Positions 3,023 to 23,166 of a DNA stretch of 41,868 bases are shown in pieces. The stretch lies in IMG/VR virus record IMGVR_UViG_3300005471_000261, positions 1 to 41,868 of that record. One strand, given 5' to 3'. The stretch's first letter is position 1, and each line of letters begins with the position of its first letter. The notes beneath the pieces were generated by a model. That model saw nothing but the letters and a program-made list of their open reading frames with translations. It was not told the DNA's origin and did no database searches. Both the position numbers and the translations under genes were made by a program. Source of the DNA: a virus.

Positions 3023-5137
3023 CCGCGCAAAGTAGCGGTAGAGGCAACTCTCGAAGCTGCGAAGTATCTCGCCGCTGCGAAGGCCGTAGAGCATTCGACC
3101 GCGGCGATGGACGAAGAGATGAAGGAACTCGACAAGTCCATCGACAAAGTGGACCGGGACCTGGCCGAGTTGGCGGCAGAGTCGGTTGCGGCGAGCGCGG
3201 CGATGAAGTCCCTCGACGCGCAAACCAACAAGGCCAGCAGGTCGATGGACGGCCTGAGCCGCAACGTCGAGGACGTCGAGCAGAGCATCGACGGCGCCAC
3301 GAAGTCCGTCCGGACCCACGGCGAGCAGGTCCGCATTCTGCGTGCGGAGTATGAGCAGACGACGAAGCGGATCGCCGAACTCGACGCCCAGTTCCTCGCC
3401 GGCGGCGACGGCAAGGCCATCGAGAAGAGTCTGCGCGAGCAACGGTCGCATCTGGCCGCGATCCAGCGGATCGCGAGGGAAATCCAGCGCACCACGGGCA
3501 CGAAGTTCAGCCTCACCGGCGACGACAGTAAGCCGATCACGGGTGTGCTCGAAGGCATTTTGGGCGGCATCCCGCAGTTGGGCGGAGTTCCGCCCCAACT
3601 GGTCGCCGGTGGTGTGGCCATCGGTGCGGCTATCGCGCCGGGCATTTCCGCGGCCGTGGCCGGGGCTCTTGTTGGAACGGTCGGGGCCGGCGGCATCGTC
3701 GGCGGTGCGCTGCTGGCGTCGCAGGATCTGCGGGTGCGTGCTGCCTTCGGGGATCTTAAGGAAACCTTTCTGCAGACGATGGAACCCGCGGCGGCGGCGT
3801 TCGTCGAGCCGGTCACGAAGTCCGTAGACGTACTCAAGGCTTATCTCGCTGGCGGAACGATTCAGTCTGTCATCCGGTCTGCTGCCCCGATGACCGACGA
3901 ATGGATCAACGGCATCATCGGGTTCATCGACAAGACCTCGGAAGGTCTCGACGTCGCCATCGACCGCTCGCAGCCGCTGTTCGACATGTGGGAGAAGGAG
4001 CTACCGGAGACAGGCAAGGCCGTCGGGGAGTTCTTCCGGTCCATCTCGGCCGACTCACCCGGCGCGGCCGCAGGTCTGAAAACGCTGTTCGACGTCCTCC
4101 AGGAAGGCACCCGTGAGACCGGCGACGCTATCGGCGGCCTCACCATCCTGAACCACCTGCTGACCTTCCCCGGCGCATCCGAGGGCCTACTGGATGTGAT
4201 CCCGTGGACCGGGTTCATCGGGATCATTGGCCGCATCGGCAAGGGTCCGGAGATCCAGTCCGCTGGCCAGTACATGACTGGCTTCGTCAACACGACCAAG
4301 TTGGCGTCGGCGGCCCTGATCGAGGAGCAAACCGCTCTTCGCCAGACCGAACAGAAGACACGCGACCTTGCCATCGCCCAACTCGACGCGACGGCGAAGG
4401 CGCGGGACCTGAAAGACGCCTGGAACGAACTCCACGGCGCGCAGATGTCCCTGGACGAGTCGCTGAAGCGCGCCTACGACGGACTGAAGCAGGTCGAAGC
4501 CGCCTTCCAGGGCGCCGGCAGCGACTCCGTGAAGGGCGACAGCCAGAGCGCGGTCGACCGGCGGTACGCGCTGGAGCAGGAGGCTACAGCTGCTATCGCC
4601 GTGGCCCAGGCGTACCTGGACATGACCGGCGACGCGGCTGGCGCGCAGAAGAAGCTCGACGACTTCAAGAAGAAGGCCGAGGAGGCGACTGGGGCGACCG
4701 GCGCCGCCCGGAAAGAAGTCGACAAACTTGCGGACTCGCTGTTCAGGTTGCCGACCAAGCGGGACATCTTCGTGACGACCTACATCCGGACGGTCGAAGG
4801 TGACTTCCGCTCTGGCGAGCGGGACTCGAGCGGGCGTCCGGTCGCGGCCGGTATCGACACCCGCGCCGAGGGCGGTCCGCTCGACTACGGCACGCCCTAC
4901 CTGTTCGGGGAGAAGGGCCCGGAGGTCGGCGTCTTCGGTCCCCGCGGCGGCCAGATGTACTCCAGCGCCGACTCCCGGAACCTGACCCGGGCGTGGGCCG
5001 GTGGAGGAGGCGGCGACGCCCGGCCGGTGGTCATCAACGTGTCGGGCAGGGCCACCGCCGCCGATCTGATCGAGACCATCAACACCGAGGTTCAGGCCCG
5101 CGGCGGCCGCCTGGCCGTACTGGGGCTCAAGGGCTAG
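3020..5137 (+). CDS. Tape measure protein (apparent ATT start)
   Basis: 705 residues if translation starts at ATT 3020, 676 if at the first ATG (3107). ATT 3020 is favoured: GGGAGG at 3008-3013 sits 6 nt upstream, the 29 extra codons look coding (PRKVAVEATLEAAKYLAAA), and ATG 3107 has no ribosome site. The N-terminal 130 residues form a charged coiled coil. Residues of about 185-240 are a Gly/Ala-rich hydrophobic section, probably the membrane-inserting part. The remainder alternates helices with a Gly-rich linker before a compact C-terminal domain (PVVINVSGRATAADLIETI). It determines tail length and helps DNA entry. It is short for a tape measure, so a short tail is predicted. Confidence 0.85.
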   Translation: MPRKVAVEATLEAAKYLAAAKAVEHSTAAMDEEMKELDKSIDKVDRDLAELAAESVAASAAMKSLDAQTNKASRSMDGLSRNVEDVEQSIDGATKSVRTHGEQVRILRAEYEQTTKRIAELDAQFLAGGDGKAIEKSLREQRSHLAAIQRIAREIQRTTGTKFSLTGDDSKPITGVLEGILGGIPQLGGVPPQLVAGGVAIGAAIAPGISAAVAGALVGTVGAGGIVGGALLASQDLRVRAAFGDLKETFLQTMEPAAAAFVEPVTKSVDVLKAYLAGGTIQSVIRSAAPMTDEWINGIIGFIDKTSEGLDVAIDRSQPLFDMWEKELPETGKAVGEFFRSISADSPGAAAGLKTLFDVLQEGTRETGDAIGGLTILNHLLTFPGASEGLLDVIPWTGFIGIIGRIGKGPEIQSAGQYMTGFVNTTKLASAALIEEQTALRQTEQKTRDLAIAQLDATAKARDLKDAWNELHGAQMSLDESLKRAYDGLKQVEAAFQGAGSDSVKGDSQSAVDRRYALEQEATAAIAVAQAYLDMTGDAAGAQKKLDDFKKKAEEATGATGAARKEVDKLADSLFRLPTKRDIFVTTYIRTVEGDFRSGERDSSGRPVAAGIDTRAEGGPLDYGTPYLFGEKGPEVGVFGPRGGQMYSSADSRNLTRAWAGGGGGDARPVVINVSGRATAADLIETINTEVQARGGRLAVLGLKG

Positions 5138-14515: not shown

Positions 14516-14721
14516 CCGCACCGGAGAAGCGCAGGCCAGGCCGGCCACGGACGGGGGTCACCCCAGGGCGTTGCGTCCGCGTCGGGCAGGTCTGGGACGA
14601 CGCTGCCGCCATCGCAGCCGCACGCGGCGAGACCATGACCGCCGTCATCGCGCGGGCGCTGGAACGGTACGTGGTGCGCCACCGAGGACGAACGGGACCA
14701 GACGATGCCGGCCATGAGTGA
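14512..14721 (+). CDS. RHH-type DNA-binding protein with an AT-hook-like N-terminus
   Basis: 69 residues, ATGA-coupled to 14207-14515. The N-terminus is KRRPGRPRTG, an AT-hook-like minor-groove motif. It is followed by a strand (CVRVGQVW) and two helices (AAAIAAARGE, MTAVIARALERYVVRHR), the ribbon-helix-helix pattern seen in Arc/CopG regulators and antitoxins. A candidate to bind the CTGTnnnACAG dyads upstream of its own operon. The frame continues far upstream as an open shadow, but only this part is plausible protein. Confidence 0.6.
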   Translation: MTAPEKRRPGRPRTGVTPGRCVRVGQVWDDAAAIAAARGETMTAVIARALERYVVRHRGRTGPDDAGHE

Positions 14722-15100
14722 CCTGATCACATGGCTGCGGTCGCAACTGGACGAGGACGAGAACGACGCGAGCACGAGCCATCAGCTCCTCTGCGACATC
14801 TACGACCTTGATGTGGACCTGAACGGCGGCGACCCGACCGACCCGCAGGTCTGCACCTGCCGAGTCAGACGGCGCTTGCTGGACGTGGCATCCAAGCGGG
14901 CGATCCTCGACACGATCCTGCCCGCGATCGAGCAGATGGACGACCAGATCATCTCGGAGTGGGGGTCGCTGGGTGATCCGCCGTGCGACGAGGTGAGCCT
15001 GCTGCCGAAGCTCCTCGCCGCGCCGTACGCGGACCGGCCCGGCTACCTTGACGAGTGGTGGCCACCGGGGCTCACCCGAACGGCCACCGTCGATGAGTGA
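14714..15100 (+). CDS. DUF6221-family protein
   Basis: 128 residues from ATG 14714; an ATG at 14705 would add three. Starts MSDLITWLRSQLDEDE, the typical opening of DUF6221 proteins. It contains a CTCRVRRRLLDVASKRAIL section where this family usually has its conserved helix, and ends LLPKLLAAPYADRPGYLDEWWP, also typical. Function unknown; the family is widespread in actinophages and actinomycete genomes. A second, divergent member lies at 24565-25062. It overlaps the preceding RHH gene by 8 nt and so belongs to the 14207 transcript. Confidence 0.7.
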   Translation: MSDLITWLRSQLDEDENDASTSHQLLCDIYDLDVDLNGGDPTDPQVCTCRVRRRLLDVASKRAILDTILPAIEQMDDQIISEWGSLGDPPCDEVSLLPKLLAAPYADRPGYLDEWWPPGLTRTATVDE

Positions 15101-16867: not shown

Positions 16868-17134
16868 TCAGCGGAGAAGCTGGCGCCGGACGCCGATGTC
16901 CAGCCCGCCGACCCGGCCGACGACCTTCGTGACGGTCCCTCGTTCGATGACGTTGGTGTCCAGGTCCTGAAGGTCCTGGCCCAGCCAGGCCAGGGGCTTG
17001 GACGGTTCGGCGGGTGCCTCGATGCTCAACGCCGGCCGTCGGTGCTGGATGAGCCACGCCGTGCCGATGCCGAGCGCCGAGATGACACCCAGCAGTCCCA
17101 GGAAGATCAAGCCGATTGCTAGTTCGCGGTCCAT
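16868..17134 (-). CDS. Single-TM protein, unknown
   Basis: 88 residues from ATG 17134, with GAGGAGG 7 nt upstream, a strong ribosome site that fixes the start although the frame is open further upstream. One membrane helix (LAIGLIFLGLLGVISALGI, continuing TAWLI), a basic HRR stop, then a soluble part containing PLAWLGQDLQDLDTNVIERG and a basic end RRQLLR. No family is recognised. It stands alone between two hairpins, divergent from the XRE/DUF5753 gene. Confidence 0.55.
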   Translation of the reverse strand: MDRELAIGLIFLGLLGVISALGIGTAWLIQHRRPALSIEAPAEPSKPLAWLGQDLQDLDTNVIERGTVTKVVGRVGGLDIGVRRQLLR

Positions 17135-17378: not shown

Positions 17379-17398
17379 CAAACGCAATAGTGCGTTCG
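17379..17398. promoter_or_regulatory. 20-bp dyad upstream of the XRE gene (copy 1)
   Basis: CAAACGCA, 4 nt, TGCGTTCG: a dyad with one mismatch. The same architecture, perfect, occurs at 18631-18650 after the cassette. A lone half site CGAACGCA lies at 17432-17439. It sits between the divergent genes 17134 (-) and 17477 (+) and is a likely operator of the XRE regulator. Confidence 0.55.
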
Positions 17399-17476
17399 TA
17401 CGGGTACACTTCGGGGGGATGGCGAGACGTGCGAACGCAACGTCGTACACAATCTTGAGAAGTTGGGAGAAGGGGC

Positions 17477-18340
17477 ATGGAGTTGCCGGGTTCGGTAGCG
17501 CAGCGCCGTCTTGGCCGCGAGCTGATGAAGCTCCGGCTGGCGGCGGAACTGTCGCGCCCCAAAGCGGCCGCAAGGATCAACCTCGCACCGTCCACGTTGG
17601 GGCGCATCGAGGGCTCAATCCAGGTGCCCCACCGCAGGACCCTCCTTGACATCCTGGACATGTACGGCGCGAGCACCGAGACCAGAGCCGCGCTCCTCGC
17701 CCTCCGTGAGCGGGCCAGCAACCGTGAGGCGGGCGGCTGGCTGGAGCCCTACCTGGAGGACCTGCCGCCGGCCTACGCCGACTACATCGGCCTGGAGATT
17801 GACGCCGAGATGCTGCAGGTCTGCGAGTCGGTGCTGATCCCCGGGCTCATCCAAACGGAGGACTACGCGCGCGCGGTACTGACGGCATTACTTCCGACCG
17901 CCACGGCATCGGCAATCGAGCGTAGGCTTGCCGTGCGAATGCAACGGCAGGGTATATTGAGCGGAGAGGAACCGGTTCGGTACGAGGCCGTCGTCGACGA
18001 GGCCGCGTTGTGGCGGGTCGTGGGAAGTCCCGCGGTGATGAGCTCGCAACTGCGGGCGCTGATCAATCTCGGATCAAACGTGAAACTCCAGGTCGTTCCC
18101 TACGGCCGTGGAGCCCACCCAGGGATGCTCGGCTCCTTGGTGATCGTGAAGTTCCGCGACACCGAAGCGCCGGACGTGGCCCTGATCGAGAGCGCGGCCG
18201 GGCATCTCCTCATCGAGGAGTCCGGAGCGCTCTCCACGTACCACGCGACGTACAAGCGGCTGCAGCGCATGGCGCTGAGTCGCAAGGACAGCGTGGGACT
18301 CATCGAGGCGGTAGTTCGGGATCATGAACGAAAGGCGTGA
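17477..18340 (+). CDS. XRE-family regulator with DUF5753 domain
   Basis: 287 residues from ATG 17477, preceded by GGAGAAGGGG. Residues 10-65: helix-turn-helix (LGRELMKLRLAAELSRPKAA, then APSTLGRIEGSIQVPHRRTL). Residues of about 100-275: DUF5753 domain with the typical LIPGLIQTEDYARAVL, RMQRQGIL, VVDEAALWRVVGSP, QLRALI, LQVVPYGRGAHPGM and final helices. Such proteins pair with a small DUF397 partner and number in the dozens in Streptomyces-like chromosomes; the Scr1/Scr2 pair is reported to behave as a toxin-antitoxin-like regulator. Here the pair is carried in a phage cassette with its own flanking dyads and terminator. Confidence 0.9.
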   Translation: MELPGSVAQRRLGRELMKLRLAAELSRPKAAARINLAPSTLGRIEGSIQVPHRRTLLDILDMYGASTETRAALLALRERASNREAGGWLEPYLEDLPPAYADYIGLEIDAEMLQVCESVLIPGLIQTEDYARAVLTALLPTATASAIERRLAVRMQRQGILSGEEPVRYEAVVDEAALWRVVGSPAVMSSQLRALINLGSNVKLQVVPYGRGAHPGMLGSLVIVKFRDTEAPDVALIESAAGHLLIEESGALSTYHATYKRLQRMALSRKDSVGLIEAVVRDHERKA

Positions 18341-18343
18341 GTC

Positions 18344-18544
18344 GTGAATCGTTACTCCGACGCCAACTGGCGCAAGAGCACCAAGTCCGGTCAGGGCAAC
18401 TGTGTGGAGGTCGCGAGGGTGCCTGATGGCATCGCGGTCCGCGACAGCAAGGATCCGGACGGCACGGTGTTGCTGTTTACAACGGACGAGTGGACCGCCT
18501 TCATCGGCGGAGCGCAAGAGGACGAGTTCAGCCACCTGGCCTGA
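18344..18544 (+). CDS. DUF397-family small partner protein
   Basis: 66 residues from GTG 18344, 3 nt after the XRE stop. It has the complete DUF397 signature: DANWRKSTKSGQGNCVEVA, VRDSKDPDGTVLLFT, then EWTAFIGGA. Known family members act with the adjacent DUF5753-type XRE protein. The close spacing indicates one operon, closed by the terminator at 18557-18600. No residue of the family pattern appears to be missing. Confidence 0.9.
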   Translation: MNRYSDANWRKSTKSGQGNCVEVARVPDGIAVRDSKDPDGTVLLFTTDEWTAFIGGAQEDEFSHLA

Positions 18545-18556
18545 TCTGTCCAACCG

Positions 18557-18600
18557 AACGGTCGAGCGCCCGATTTGGGATCTGGTGCTCGGCCGTTTTT
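18557..18600 (+). terminator. Intrinsic terminator after the DUF397 gene
   Basis: AACGGTCGAGC (18557-18567) and GCTCGGCCGTT (18587-18597) form an 11-bp stem with one mismatch, followed directly by a run of five T. It is the only classic stem plus T-tract in the window and closes the XRE/DUF397 operon. Confidence 0.8.
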
Positions 18601-18630
18601 GTGTGCCATGATTCGGCAATCGCACGCGTA

Positions 18631-18650
18631 CGAACGCACGATTGCGTTCG
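18631..18650. promoter_or_regulatory. 20-bp perfect dyad after the XRE/DUF397 cassette (copy 2)
   Basis: CGAACGCA (18631-18638), CGAT, TGCGTTCG (18643-18650), perfectly symmetric. It matches the dyad at 17379-17398 in length, spacing and arms. The following gap to 18873 contains no credible gene. The dyad could control the membrane gene at 18874 or mark the border of a mobile cassette. Confidence 0.55.
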
Positions 18651-18873: not shown

Positions 18874-19386
18874 GTGAACAACGTCATCAATCTCAAGTCG
18901 CGTCAACGCGTCCAGTACGTCAGGTACCGGTTCTGGGCCTACAGCGCGGCCGGCGGCACCGTCGGCGCGGCCTGCGGGTACTGGACCCTGGCGTCGCTGT
19001 GGCCGGAGGTGTTCCTGCACTGGCTGGCTGGGCTGCTCATCACCGCAGCTGTCCTCACCTCCACCACCGTCGCCGCCGGCTTCTACGCGCTGGGGGTGCA
19101 GGAGCGCCGCGAACGCGAGCGGCGGGTGCGGGAGTGGCGGGAGAAGCGGGCGGCCCAGCGCCGGGCGGTGAGGGACGCCGAGAAGGCCCGGCTGCGGGCC
19201 ATCATGGAGGCCCCGACGGAGGTCATCCAGATCCTGGCGCCACGCCCGGCGGCGTACGTGGCGATGGAGGACAGGATGAGGCTGCACCTGATGAGCGACC
19301 TGACGGAGCGCACCGGCGACCTGGGCGTGGTGGACCCGTCGTCGTGGGCCTCGCCGCCGCGGGGATGGCGTACCGGCGCGGCGTAG
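18874..19386 (+). CDS. Two-TM membrane protein with a basic helix, unknown
   Basis: 170 residues from GTG 18874, with GGGGGAA just upstream. Two membrane helices at about 23-45 (FWAYSAAGGTVGAACGYWTL) and 52-76 (WLAGLLITAAVLTSTTVAAG). They are followed by a strongly basic helix (ERRERERRVREWREKRAAQ) and a soluble end (VIQILAPRPAAYVAMEDRM). Function unknown. It is followed by a hairpin terminator (19413-19447), so it is probably a single-gene transcript, possibly controlled by the dyad at 18631. Confidence 0.6.
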   Translation: MNNVINLKSRQRVQYVRYRFWAYSAAGGTVGAACGYWTLASLWPEVFLHWLAGLLITAAVLTSTTVAAGFYALGVQERRERERRVREWREKRAAQRRAVRDAEKARLRAIMEAPTEVIQILAPRPAAYVAMEDRMRLHLMSDLTERTGDLGVVDPSSWASPPRGWRTGAA

Positions 19387-19494: not shown

Positions 19495-20583
19495 ATGGCA
19501 ACACGGCAAGCGGAAGCACTGGCCCTCGTCGCTCGCGTACGGCGTGTCGGCTGGCCGGTGGAACAGATCGACGGCGGAGTCTGGAAGGTGACCTGCCCCA
19601 ACCGCAAGCGGGTCCAGATTCACCAGACGCCCTCAGACCGGAACTCGAGCGCGGGCGTCCTGCGCGCGCTCAACGCCAGCGGGTTCGCCGAGGCGGAGGC
19701 GGAGGTCGCCGCTGCGGCGGAGGCGGCGAAGGAAGCGAAACTGGCCGCCGCCAAAGCCCGCAACGACGCGGCCACCAAGCGGGCCACGGCGCGCGCCACG
19801 AGACTGTCGCGCGCGGCTGGACCGTACGGGCCCTCTGAGGTCACCCTCGCCGACCTTCTAGCCAAGCACCCCGCCCCAGCCGTCTACCACCGCGTCCTTA
19901 TTACTCCGGACATGGCTACGGCGATGCTGGCGCGGAACACGAAGAACCGGAAGCCGAACAAGGCGGATATCGCCGAGTGGACGAAGGTGCTCCGCGGTGG
20001 CCGGTGGAGGTACACACATCAAGGTGTCGCCTTCGACGTCGACGGCAGGCTTCAGGACGGCCAGCACCGCCTGTCGGCGATCGTCGAGGCCGGGATCGCT
20101 GCCGAGATGCTCGTCGCCGTGGGTATGCCCCCGGATAACTTCTCCGTCATTGACACGGGCCGGCGCAGGTCGGCGGCGCAGGTTCTGGCGATGGACGGCG
20201 CCGTGTACGCCTCCTGGATGGCGACGGCGACGCGCCACCTCTATCTGTATGAGGTATGGGGCAGCGCTCTGCTGGATCACGTCTACGAGCGGGTCGGCAA
20301 CGATCTCATTCTCGACGCCTACGCGAAGCTCGACGGCGACACTTTCGTCGAGGCCTGCCGCAACGGACAGCGTCTCCGGCGCGAAATCGGGGTCGCGCCC
20401 ACAGGGGTTGCTGCGGCGCTCTACCTGATCGGTCAAGCCGTCGGGCCCGGAAACTCGCCGTCTCGGAGATCATGGCGTTGGTCATCAAGGCCTGGAACGC
20501 CAGGGTTTGCGGGCCAGCGCGGGATCAGCCACCTCGCGGTCCGCGCTGGCGCGCAGATGCCGAAGCCGGCCGTGCCTGATTAG
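19495..20583 (+). CDS. DGQHR/ParB-like domain protein with a locally frameshifted C-terminus
   Basis: 362 residues from ATG 19495 (an ATG at 19450 gives 15 more, overlapping the terminator region). Residues 1-60: small basic domain (VRRVGWPVEQIDGGVWKVT). Residues 65-110: Ala/Lys-rich coiled coil. Then VYHRVLITPDMATAML, GGRWRYTHQGVAFDVDGR and D188-G-Q-H-R192, the DGQHR motif of ParB-like phage proteins, and FSVIDTGRRRSAAQ. Near the end the frame is disturbed: about 25 residues read as low-complexity Ser/Pro/Arg, while the other frame encodes KLAVSEIMALVIKAWNARV. The original frame then resumes with ISHLAVRAGAQMPKP. This looks like two compensating indels; the protein may be damaged. Confidence 0.65.
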   Translation: MATRQAEALALVARVRRVGWPVEQIDGGVWKVTCPNRKRVQIHQTPSDRNSSAGVLRALNASGFAEAEAEVAAAAEAAKEAKLAAAKARNDAATKRATARATRLSRAAGPYGPSEVTLADLLAKHPAPAVYHRVLITPDMATAMLARNTKNRKPNKADIAEWTKVLRGGRWRYTHQGVAFDVDGRLQDGQHRLSAIVEAGIAAEMLVAVGMPPDNFSVIDTGRRRSAAQVLAMDGAVYASWMATATRHLYLYEVWGSALLDHVYERVGNDLILDAYAKLDGDTFVEACRNGQRLRREIGVAPTGVAAALYLIGQAVGPGNSPSRRSWRWSSRPGTPGFAGQRGISHLAVRAGAQMPKPAVPD

Positions 20584-20660: not shown

Positions 20661-20900
20661 CGGGTACAGATCCGGTACAAACTAGCTTGGCCAGCACTGA
20701 CCAACGGTGACCAAGAGTGAAGGCCTTATGGGCAGGTCATAAGCGCTTTCTCGAACGTTTGCGCTGGTCGGCGCCCACGCTGTGACAGAACTCAGAGTTA
20801 AGGTAAGGAAGCCCGGCTTAAGGCCCCTGACCTGCGGCGGAGCGTTTTCGCCAAGATCCCGGTACATTCACGGTACAGATCGCAGACGATCTTGTACCGG
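20661..20900. other. Candidate attP with arm-type repeats and a core-like inverted repeat
   Basis: GGTACA occurs at 20663-20668 and 20674-20679 (11 bp apart), again at 20861-20866 and 20872-20877 (also 11 bp apart), and inverted at 20893-20898. Between the pairs lie CTTATG (20725-20730), a 7-nt spacer and CATAAG (20738-20743), the geometry of a tyrosine-recombinase core. TGACCAA direct repeats (20698 and 20708) could bind excisionase. The layout is that of an attP with P and P' arms next to its integrase. No tRNA end is visible, so the host site is unknown. Apart from these, the 20642-20867 gap shows no gene. Confidence 0.55.
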
Positions 20901-22058
20901 AGCGTCGAACAGGGCGTCGATCGCGTCCCGCGTCCGGTCGTCCTCGCCCGGCCACAGATGCGCGTACGTCGACAACGTCTCGTGCCCGTCCGGGTGATGG
21001 CCGAGCCGGGCCGCCACCTGGGTGACGCTGGCCCCATGGGCGATCAACGCACTGGCGTAGAAGTGCCTCAGGTCGTGGAAGGTCGGCTCCCCCGCCCCGG
21101 CCAGGCCGACCTTCTTCACCGCCGGCCGCCAGACCTGGCGGGAGTACGCCGCCCGGGAGATCACCCGCCCGGCCAGGAGCCGCGCCTTGCGTACACGCGG
21201 CACCCCGCCCGTCTTGTCCACCACCTCGATGTCGACGGCCGGGAAGTCCCTCAGGTGGGCCGCCAGCCGGTCGACGAGCGTCTTCCCGATCGGGATGGTG
21301 CGCAGCGAGTGGCGTGTCTTCGGCGGAGCCAGGAACGGCGGCTGGCCGGGCAGCCACAGCAGCTGCTGCTCCACCCGCAGCCGGCGGCGCAGAAAGTCGA
21401 CCTGCTCGACCTCGAGGCCGAACGCCTCGCCCTGGCGCAGCCCGGCCAGCGCGCCCAGGTCGTCCAGGGCCCGATACCGCGGCGGCTTCGCATCCCGCAG
21501 GGCGTCGATGTCGTCCATCGGGAAGACCTGGAGCCGCTTCTTCGTGACCTCCGCCAGGTTGATGCCCACACACGGCGACTTCGAGATCAGCCCGTCCATC
21601 ACGGCGGACCGGAACACGGACACGACGAACCGGTAGGCCACCTTGACGCTCGCGGGCGCGAGGGACACGTCCATGCGCCGGACCAGGCCCTGAACGTCTG
21701 AGCGTTTGATCGACGCGATCGGGCGGCTGCCCAGATATGGCAGGACGTGCCGTCGGAACAGCGACTCGATCAGCAGCGCCGTGTTGGTCGCGTGGACCTG
21801 GTTGCCCCGCCACTGCTCGGCCACCTCGGCGAAGGTGGTCCGCCCGGCGCGCGGGTCGATGTACTCACCTCGGCGGACGTCGGTGCGGATCGAGGCATCG
21901 TAGTTCTCGGCGTCGATCTTCTTGTCGAAGAGCTGGGTGCGGGCCGCGCCGTCCGGGTCGACATACCGCACCCGGTAGCGCTTGCCCCGGCCGTGGCGGG
22001 CGCTGGGCACCTTCTTGCCGTCCAGGCCCTTCTTCAGCCAGAGATCGTCTACGGCCAC
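20868..22058 (-). CDS. int: Tyrosine integrase
   Basis: 396 residues from GTG 22058, which shares one base with the upstream stop (TAGTG). N-terminal arm-binding domain (LFDKKIDAENYDASI, RRGEYIDPRAGRTTF), core-binding helices (RHVLPYLGSRPIASIKRSDV) and a catalytic domain with R208 (LAGLRQGEAF), K247 (PPKTRHSLRTI), H328/R331 (FHDLRH), H354 (RLGHH) and nucleophile Y365 (TLSTYAHL). All six expected residues are present, so the enzyme should be active in integration and, with an excisionase, excision. It is the last gene of the repressor operon, an unusual coupling of immunity and integration. Its 3' end overlaps the right arm repeats of attP. Confidence 0.95.
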   Translation of the reverse strand: MAVDDLWLKKGLDGKKVPSARHGRGKRYRVRYVDPDGAARTQLFDKKIDAENYDASIRTDVRRGEYIDPRAGRTTFAEVAEQWRGNQVHATNTALLIESLFRRHVLPYLGSRPIASIKRSDVQGLVRRMDVSLAPASVKVAYRFVVSVFRSAVMDGLISKSPCVGINLAEVTKKRLQVFPMDDIDALRDAKPPRYRALDDLGALAGLRQGEAFGLEVEQVDFLRRRLRVEQQLLWLPGQPPFLAPPKTRHSLRTIPIGKTLVDRLAAHLRDFPAVDIEVVDKTGGVPRVRKARLLAGRVISRAAYSRQVWRPAVKKVGLAGAGEPTFHDLRHFYASALIAHGASVTQVAARLGHHPDGHETLSTYAHLWPGEDDRTRDAIDALFDAPVQDRLRSVP

Positions 22059-22249
22059 TAGAGTTCGTCCTTCCCTGGCTCGCGGGGCGCCCGGCGCCGC
22101 TCCGCGATCACCTCGTTGAAGTACTCGAGGGCGAGGGCCAGGTGTCTTCCCAGCGCCCAACGCTCATGACCGTCGAGGCTCCCCAGTAGCGCCTCGATGT
22201 CGCGTAGGACGTCCTCGGGCGACGGGCTGTCGTCGTCAATGAGTGCCAT
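22058..22249 (-). CDS. 63-residue protein between repressor and integrase
   Basis: ATG 22249 shares a base with the repressor stop (TGATG); its own stop shares a base with the integrase GTG. An acidic N-terminus (DDDSPSPEDVLRDIEALLG), then HERWALGRHLALALEYFNEV and a basic end. The LALALEYFNEVI part resembles LAYSLELFDEVV at the end of the upstream repressor, suggesting the two share a dimerisation helix or arose by duplication. It may modulate the repressor or integrase. Unknown family. Confidence 0.65.
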   Translation of the reverse strand: MALIDDDSPSPEDVLRDIEALLGSLDGHERWALGRHLALALEYFNEVIAERRRAPREPGKDEL

Positions 22250-22686: not shown

Positions 22687-22875
22687 GTTCAGGACGTTAG
22701 ACGCGCTTCCGGGTACAGCTGCGACGCCTCTGGCCAGTGTGCCTGCATGCATGCCATTGATAGTGGCGGAAGGCATGCGTGCAAGCAAGTGACACGCGGA
22801 TTTGCTCGCGAGCACAACGGAATCCGGGAAGCGTGGGGAGTGCATGCGCGCCTTCCAAGGGTGTAGCGTCGCGGC
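22687..22875. promoter_or_regulatory. Immunity operator region with GCATGC repeats and two leaderless promoters
   Basis: Four related elements built on GCATGC: 22742-22755, 22772-22782, 22841-22852 and 22873-22883, the last covering the ATG of the Cro-like gene. On the minus strand TAACGT (22699-22694) stands 7 nt before GTG 22686; on the plus strand TAGCGT (22864-22869) stands 6 nt before ATG 22876. Neither start has a Shine-Dalgarno sequence. The repeats are the natural operator candidates for repressor and Cro. No gene is visible in this gap. Confidence 0.6.
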
Positions 22876-23166
22876 ATGCACGCAATCCCTCAGGAGACGC
22901 GCCGGAAGGCACGCACGCCACACGTGGTCAAGCTCAAGACCGATGAGGAGACCGGCAAGCTCGTCGCCAGGAAGATCGCCGAGGACCGCGGCCACCTCAC
23001 CCGGCAGCAGCAAGCCGCCTTCCTCGGATTGAGCGAGACGACGTGGGGCCGGCTCCTGCGAGGCGACATCGACCCGGGCGAGGAGACGATCGGCGCCGTA
23101 CTCGGCGAACACCCGGACGACGACGAGATCACCTTCGACGCGCTGTTTGAGGTCGTGTCCCCATGA
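22876..23166 (+). CDS. Cro-like helix-turn-helix protein
   Basis: 96 residues from ATG 22876, leaderless by the position of TAGCGT. A basic N-terminal arm (ETRRKARTPHVVKLK) is followed by HTH helices (KIAEDRGHLTRQQQAAFLGL, SETTWGRLLRGDIDPGEETI) and an acidic end (DDDEITFDALFEVV). It is the first gene of the rightward early operon, divergent from the repressor, the classic Cro position. Its first codons lie inside one of the GCATGC elements, so it may repress itself. Confidence 0.7.
   Translation: MHAIPQETRRKARTPHVVKLKTDEETGKLVARKIAEDRGHLTRQQQAAFLGLSETTWGRLLRGDIDPGEETIGAVLGEHPDDDEITFDALFEVVSP

Follow-up and report, generated by a model that had tools for sequence, protein, structure and literature searches.

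The window, by which we mean the whole 41,868-bp stretch of DNA analyzed here, is an IMG/VR virus record; structural and lysis genes in its left part identify it as a phage, and the gene pair described below is carried by a temperate actinomycete phage. The pair is of the WhiJ/BldB type, an XRE-DUF5753 regulator with a DUF397 partner, and our comparisons make it likely that it has its cognate operator in two copies and that the XRE protein acts through both. New here is the two-operator layout, with one copy ahead of the pair and an inverted copy behind its terminator, which recurs in two other viral records. The relatives of the phage integrase, within one order, have 35–42% identity, the tail protein resembles those of Streptomyces and Thermobifida phages, and DNA-level searches of phage records returned no close phage relatives. 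The features are collected in table 1.

Table 1. Features of the window and of the loci compared with it
Sequence	Feature	Position	Strand	Details
Window	Small divergent gene, 88 aa, predicted membrane protein	16868..17134	-	RBS GAGGAGGAAC and codon-position GC
Window	Operator 1 (candidate), 20-bp dyad	17379..17398	.	CAAACGCA-ATAG-TGCGTTCG, one arm mismatch
Window	Putative -10 element TACACT, 7 bp past operator 1	17405..17410	+	Sequence inspection only
Window	Extra half-site between operator 1 and the XRE gene	17433..17440 (half-site 17432-17440)	+	GAACGCAA
Window	XRE/DUF5753 (WhiJ-type) regulator, 287 aa	17477..18340	+	Pfam PF19054, HTH_31, phrog_9908
Window	DUF397 (BldB-type) partner, 66 aa, GTG start	18344..18544	+	Pfam PF04149 E 1.5e-23; phrog_10815
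Window	Intrinsic terminator of the pair	18556..18601	+	Hairpin -30.8 kcal/mol, z -4.5, then T run
Window	Operator 2 (candidate), perfect 20-bp dyad	18631..18650	.	CGAACGCA-CGAT-TGCGTTCG
Window	Next codirectional gene, 170 aa, predicted membrane protein	18874..19386	+	Frame and codon-position GC
Window	Following 362-aa gene, phrog_5931-like (unknown function)	19495..20583	+	
Window	Tyrosine integrase	20868-22160	-	
Window	Divergent HTH pair past the integrase, first gene	~22.25-22.69 kb	-	HTH_3
Window	Divergent HTH pair past the integrase, second gene	22876-23166	+	phrog_3642
L332 (IMGVR_UViG_2935054407_000001)	Operator motif and inverted copy	2909; 4106		GACGCACATGCAACGGCGC
L349 (IMGVR_UViG_2934556957_000001)	Operator motif and inverted copy	2874; 4121		GGTTGGACCGGTACAACC
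Nocardia loci L223, L227-L236, L240-L243, L245, L246, L248, L251, L252	Dyad by aldehyde dehydrogenase gene			GAACGCAATAGTGCGTTC

With an N-terminal XRE helix-turn-helix (HTH_31, E 4.9e-11) and a C-terminal DUF5753 domain (PF19054, E 2e-49), both exceeding the cut-offs, the regulator has the domain arrangement of WhiJ-type proteins, and its AlphaFold2 model has a pLDDT of 95; the adjacent BldB-type gene of a WhiJ/BldB pair is also present, beginning 3 bp past the XRE stop codon. The nearest relatives of the regulator are chromosomal, the closest being a protein of Streptosporangium canum with 46% identity, and it is no sister of other phage XREs, in agreement with an earlier characterization of the pair as host-type. 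Scans of collections of viruses and genomes with single proteins returned no relatives. A model of the DUF5753 domain (m13eb8529c11a; AlphaFold2, window 17765–18337, pLDDT 94) best resembles the phospholipase D superfamily, the nearest structures being SauUSI, PLD3, and BJ-TSA-9, with no E-value <0.001; as the catalytic motif HxK(x)4D is not evident, the modeled domain would likely have a noncatalytic role, as a sensor or dimer. Family searches gave no match for the product of the small divergent gene, and the product of the next codirectional gene had no confident family match and no phage match. The latter gene is the candidate target of operator 2 and probably shares an operon with the phrog_5931-like gene, whose product has distant matches in mycobacteriophages and in phages of Gram-negative hosts. 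A DUF6221 protein (E 5.8e-14; window 14705–15100) is encoded to the left of the pair, in the accessory region.

Two dyads and an additional half site had been reported around the pair in the preliminary description, and all three are present, one dyad before the XRE gene and the other after the DUF397 terminator. Both are intergenic and flank the two genes: Operator 1 lies 98–79 bp ahead of the XRE start, and operator 2 approximately 30 bp past the terminator, between it and the next gene. When the pattern GAACGCA-4-TGCGTTC was searched with at most one mismatch, the two dyads were the only sites in the 41,868 bp, and 100 dinucleotide-preserving shuffles of the window gave none (a version allowing three mismatches was uninformative). 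On the minus strand, copy 2 agrees with copy 1 past the dyad (AACGCAAT[A/C]GTGCGTTCGTACG), and the copies are thus mutually inverted. Of the five occurrences of the half-site RAAYGCAA in the window, four fall within 17380–18649. A scan with the sigma-70 consensus recognized no clear promoter at either dyad.

Conservation of the candidate site upstream of homologous genes makes it very probable that the phage XRE has the dyad as its operator. The exact dyad is found just ahead of the XRE start in Nocardia seriolae and also in other Nocardia: Thirteen of the 30 fetched Nocardia orthologues have the exact 7-4-7 dyad 47–59 bp ahead of the start codon, and these are all the orthologues with at least 78% identity to the N. 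seriolae protein, the more divergent ones (~73–77%) having variants or none and lacking the exact dyad. In Nocardia farcinica (L010), the dyad at 331–348 lies ~3.6 kb from the orthologous XRE near 3960, as if an insertion had separated operator and gene. Within 130 bp upstream of each homologue, RAAYGCAA was scored in 20 of 35 homologues with at least 39% identity versus 3 of 54 with less than 37%, counts that are not independent as the homologues are related; in the background it was scored in 13 of 4,533 windows (<1%), and in 10 of the 1,619 under 64% GC. The Streptosporangiales homologues have the same half-site with altered centers, such as GAACGCAATATAGGCGTTC and GAATGCACGATTGCATAG. The half-site also follows the recognition helix, being present with 23 of 48 proteins of the type T[LIV]xRxE and with 2 of 56 others (Fisher p 7e-8, ignoring the kinship of these related homologues). 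A quick maximum-likelihood tree places the window XRE inside a clade of 43 rows, 28 of them with the half-site, with a support of 83 at the clade fork and a long window branch; the XREs of the other sequenced phages tested fall on other branches, outside this half-site clade. The dyad had been called a strong candidate operator, with its absence near homologous pairs named as the finding that would speak against this; the exact dyad before the Nocardia orthologues and the half-site before most close homologues show that it is not absent there. A universal dyad with a 4-bp spacer for the whole XRE family was also considered and rejected, as a spacer of 4 was not special across 91 upstream regions.

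The chromosomal XRE/DUF5753 genes of this clade come from Streptosporangiales, Nocardiopsis, and Nocardia (loci L137, L138, L139, L155, and L268–L279) and share with the phage the half-site upstream, the recognition-helix type and, often, a DUF397 gene as next neighbor. They differ in that several have a divergent neighbor judged by sequence inspection to be a putative RsbW-like ATPase gene, which the phage lacks; the small divergent gene of table 1 occupies this slot. Three-gene WhiJ/BldB loci have abaA (anti-sigma ATPase) or iosA as a neighbor, and family searches gave no such match for the small divergent gene or the gene at 18874–19386. No second operator copy was found in the chromosomal clade.

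It should be noted that the dyad alone is not diagnostic, since it also occurs without a neighboring XRE. The exact dyad is found in 86 of 148 Nocardia genomes, where a reversed control pattern is rare, and in only 11 of 297 genomes of the class. In 20 of the 30 Nocardia loci read, an ATAG-centered dyad is found next to an aldehyde dehydrogenase gene, apparently at a single conserved position, with no XRE within 1.5 kb of it; the exact sequence is kept in many Nocardia genomes between a small minus-strand ORF and the aldehyde dehydrogenase gene. The same 14 bases are thus in use elsewhere, perhaps by another regulator. In viral contigs, the exact dyad occurs in at least 119 stretches, none near an XRE homologue among the matches listed, so the dyad by itself is no useful phage marker.

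To compare the surroundings of such pairs, we matched the 180 bp upstream against the stretch after the pair, for viral loci drawn from 49 viral contigs with homologues, and counted a second copy at 18 of 20 matches. The layout of operator, XRE, DUF397, terminator, and inverted operator copy was found in 3 of 43 viral loci versus none of 114 chromosomal or plasmid loci, and in none of 1,256 shuffled comparisons; as the window prompted the search, the independent viral count is 2 of 42. The two further records, L332 and L349, are viral according to IMG/VR, each with a tyrosine integrase and L332 also with a GntR-type regulator, and either could be an integrative element of another kind. They share with the window the two operators around the pair and a terminator ahead of the second copy, this copy following shortly past a terminator-like hairpin in all three (the hairpin being weak in L349), and the gene after it is on the same strand as the pair in all three. 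They differ in the operators themselves, as the motifs of the three records are mutually unrelated; each record has exactly two copies of its own motif at the mismatch levels searched. In L332, the gene directly past the second copy is a second DUF397 gene (4177–4455). Six further annotated phage loci that include an XRE/DUF5753 gene showed no second operator copy.

That unrelated motifs stand in the same two positions in three records is best explained by cognate operators rather than cassette ends, and given this recurrence a second operator ahead of a codirectional gene is the best reading of the second dyad. The preliminary description had the dyads also mark the borders of an imported cassette, in which case they would be the ends of a mobile element and any regulatory role incidental. 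The copies are indeed mutually inverted and outside both genes, and the pair is chromosomal in type with chromosomal nearest relatives; against this, the dyad is part of the promoter region in the chromosomal homologues, neither a recombinase nor a target duplication is linked with it, the codon usage of the pair is within the range of the other window genes, copy 2 sits between terminator and next gene, and L332 and L349 use different motifs in the same places, all of which leaves cassette ends improbable. Searches for relatives found no close one with an empty site. Recent import as judged by composition was rejected on the same codon usage. Of the earlier interpretation, the operator and the host-type pair are thus retained, and the cassette borders, like the addiction or defense role discussed below, are not.

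Operator 2 could also lack a promoter of its own and serve as an auxiliary site that loops over ~1.25 kb to operator 1, strengthening autoregulation. The distances between the sites are similar (1,252, 1,196, and 1,247 bp in the window, L332, and L349), the copies are inverted in all three records, and no obvious promoter adjoins operator 2; yet a codirectional gene follows in all three, in L332 ~50 bp on and itself a DUF397 gene, the helical phasing is not constant, and the spacing may merely mirror the gene lengths. We regard such looping as a lesser possibility, on the doubtful side.

Genes of the same two families (phrog_9908 and phrog_10815) are also found in the Streptomyces phages Picard, Darolandstone, Samy, Ididsumtinwong, and Success, which are temperate and often have them near the integrase; their XREs differ in belonging to other tree branches and in having no duplicated operator. 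In Samy (L004:5079–5096), a different 7-4-7 dyad, GACTGCAAAAATGCAGTC, is found upstream of the XRE only, as a single copy within the 12 kb that were read. The window pair likewise sits between lysis genes and integrase, as in several Streptomyces phages, a location that would suit a phage immunity repressor system with operator 2 as part of the lysis-lysogeny switch. However, a separate divergent HTH pair past the integrase (~22.25–23.17 kb) resembles a repressor/Cro switch belonging to the phage itself, phages with XRE-DUF397 pairs also carry an annotated repressor/Cro pair, and XRE and DUF397 are codirectional, unlike a divergent repressor and Cro with operators between them; an immunity function of the pair is therefore unlikely. 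Several GCATGC-like repeats lie between the divergent HTH genes (window 22690–22880) and probably serve this switch as operators.

Among characterized systems, iosA-whiJ9-bldB9 of Streptomyces venezuelae resembles the phage pair in that a DUF397 (BldB-type) gene adjoins the gene of the XRE regulator and in that WhiJ9 binds near its own promoter (PMC10294661). In its own intergenic region, WhiJ9 recognizes three direct repeats CGXXCTCAAC, and it acts on the divergent gene; it is needed for iosA activation, the data are consistent with autorepression, and DNA binding was not found for BldB (PMC10294661). The phage differs in its inverted dyad in place of direct repeats and in the second copy behind the pair. 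Streptomyces coelicolor has pairs of the same two gene families, in this case chromosomal, and Scr1/Scr2 and 14 others of them are regulators by experiment and not toxin-antitoxin systems (PMC6262351, PMC10364602); searching the text of the Scr1/Scr2 paper turned up neither a motif nor a palindrome nor an EMSA. These results bear on the addiction or defense module proposed in the preliminary description. A type II toxin-antitoxin or defense module, with DUF397 as the toxin, was predicted from gene association (Makarova 2009, PMC2701414), but none of the 14 S. coelicolor pairs behaved in this way, overexpressing DUF397 had no clear toxic effect (PMC10364602), and PADLOC gave no match for the phage pair or its neighbors, making this reading highly improbable.

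The dyads, the link between operator and clade, and the recurrence of the two-operator layout come from sequence and comparison, and on this basis we propose a mechanism in which the binding itself, whether it represses or activates, the genes acted on, and the part played by DUF397 are inferred. Most likely, an XRE dimer would bind the 7-4-7 dyad. At operator 1, together with the half-site at 17433, it would control its own promoter, probably by repression, by analogy with WhiJ9; at operator 2, it would control the codirectional genes from 18874 on, or bridge to operator 1. BldB proteins are thought to modulate WhiJ proteins, and the DUF397 protein would most likely modulate the XRE here. Regulation of host genes by the phage pair, which the preliminary description had also raised, is possible. 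More tentatively, and with the balance somewhat against it, a two-operator form of WhiJ/BldB pairs may have evolved repeatedly in actinomycete mobile elements, the inverted operator copy behind the terminator giving a self-contained loop or control of the adjacent phage genes; none of the examined chromosomal pairs showed this layout.

Actinomycete genomes carry many XRE-DUF397 regulators, for which, to our knowledge, few binding sites are known. The comparison proposes a concrete operator for a whole XRE clade, which can be tested with short oligonucleotides, and the phage offers a compact copy, in a genome that contains just two such sites. As a layout that recurs, the two-operator arrangement would be a natural reporter for the effect of DUF397 on the XRE, and one motif ahead of and behind the switch would provide a straightforward target for experiments on a pair of proteins that is poorly understood.
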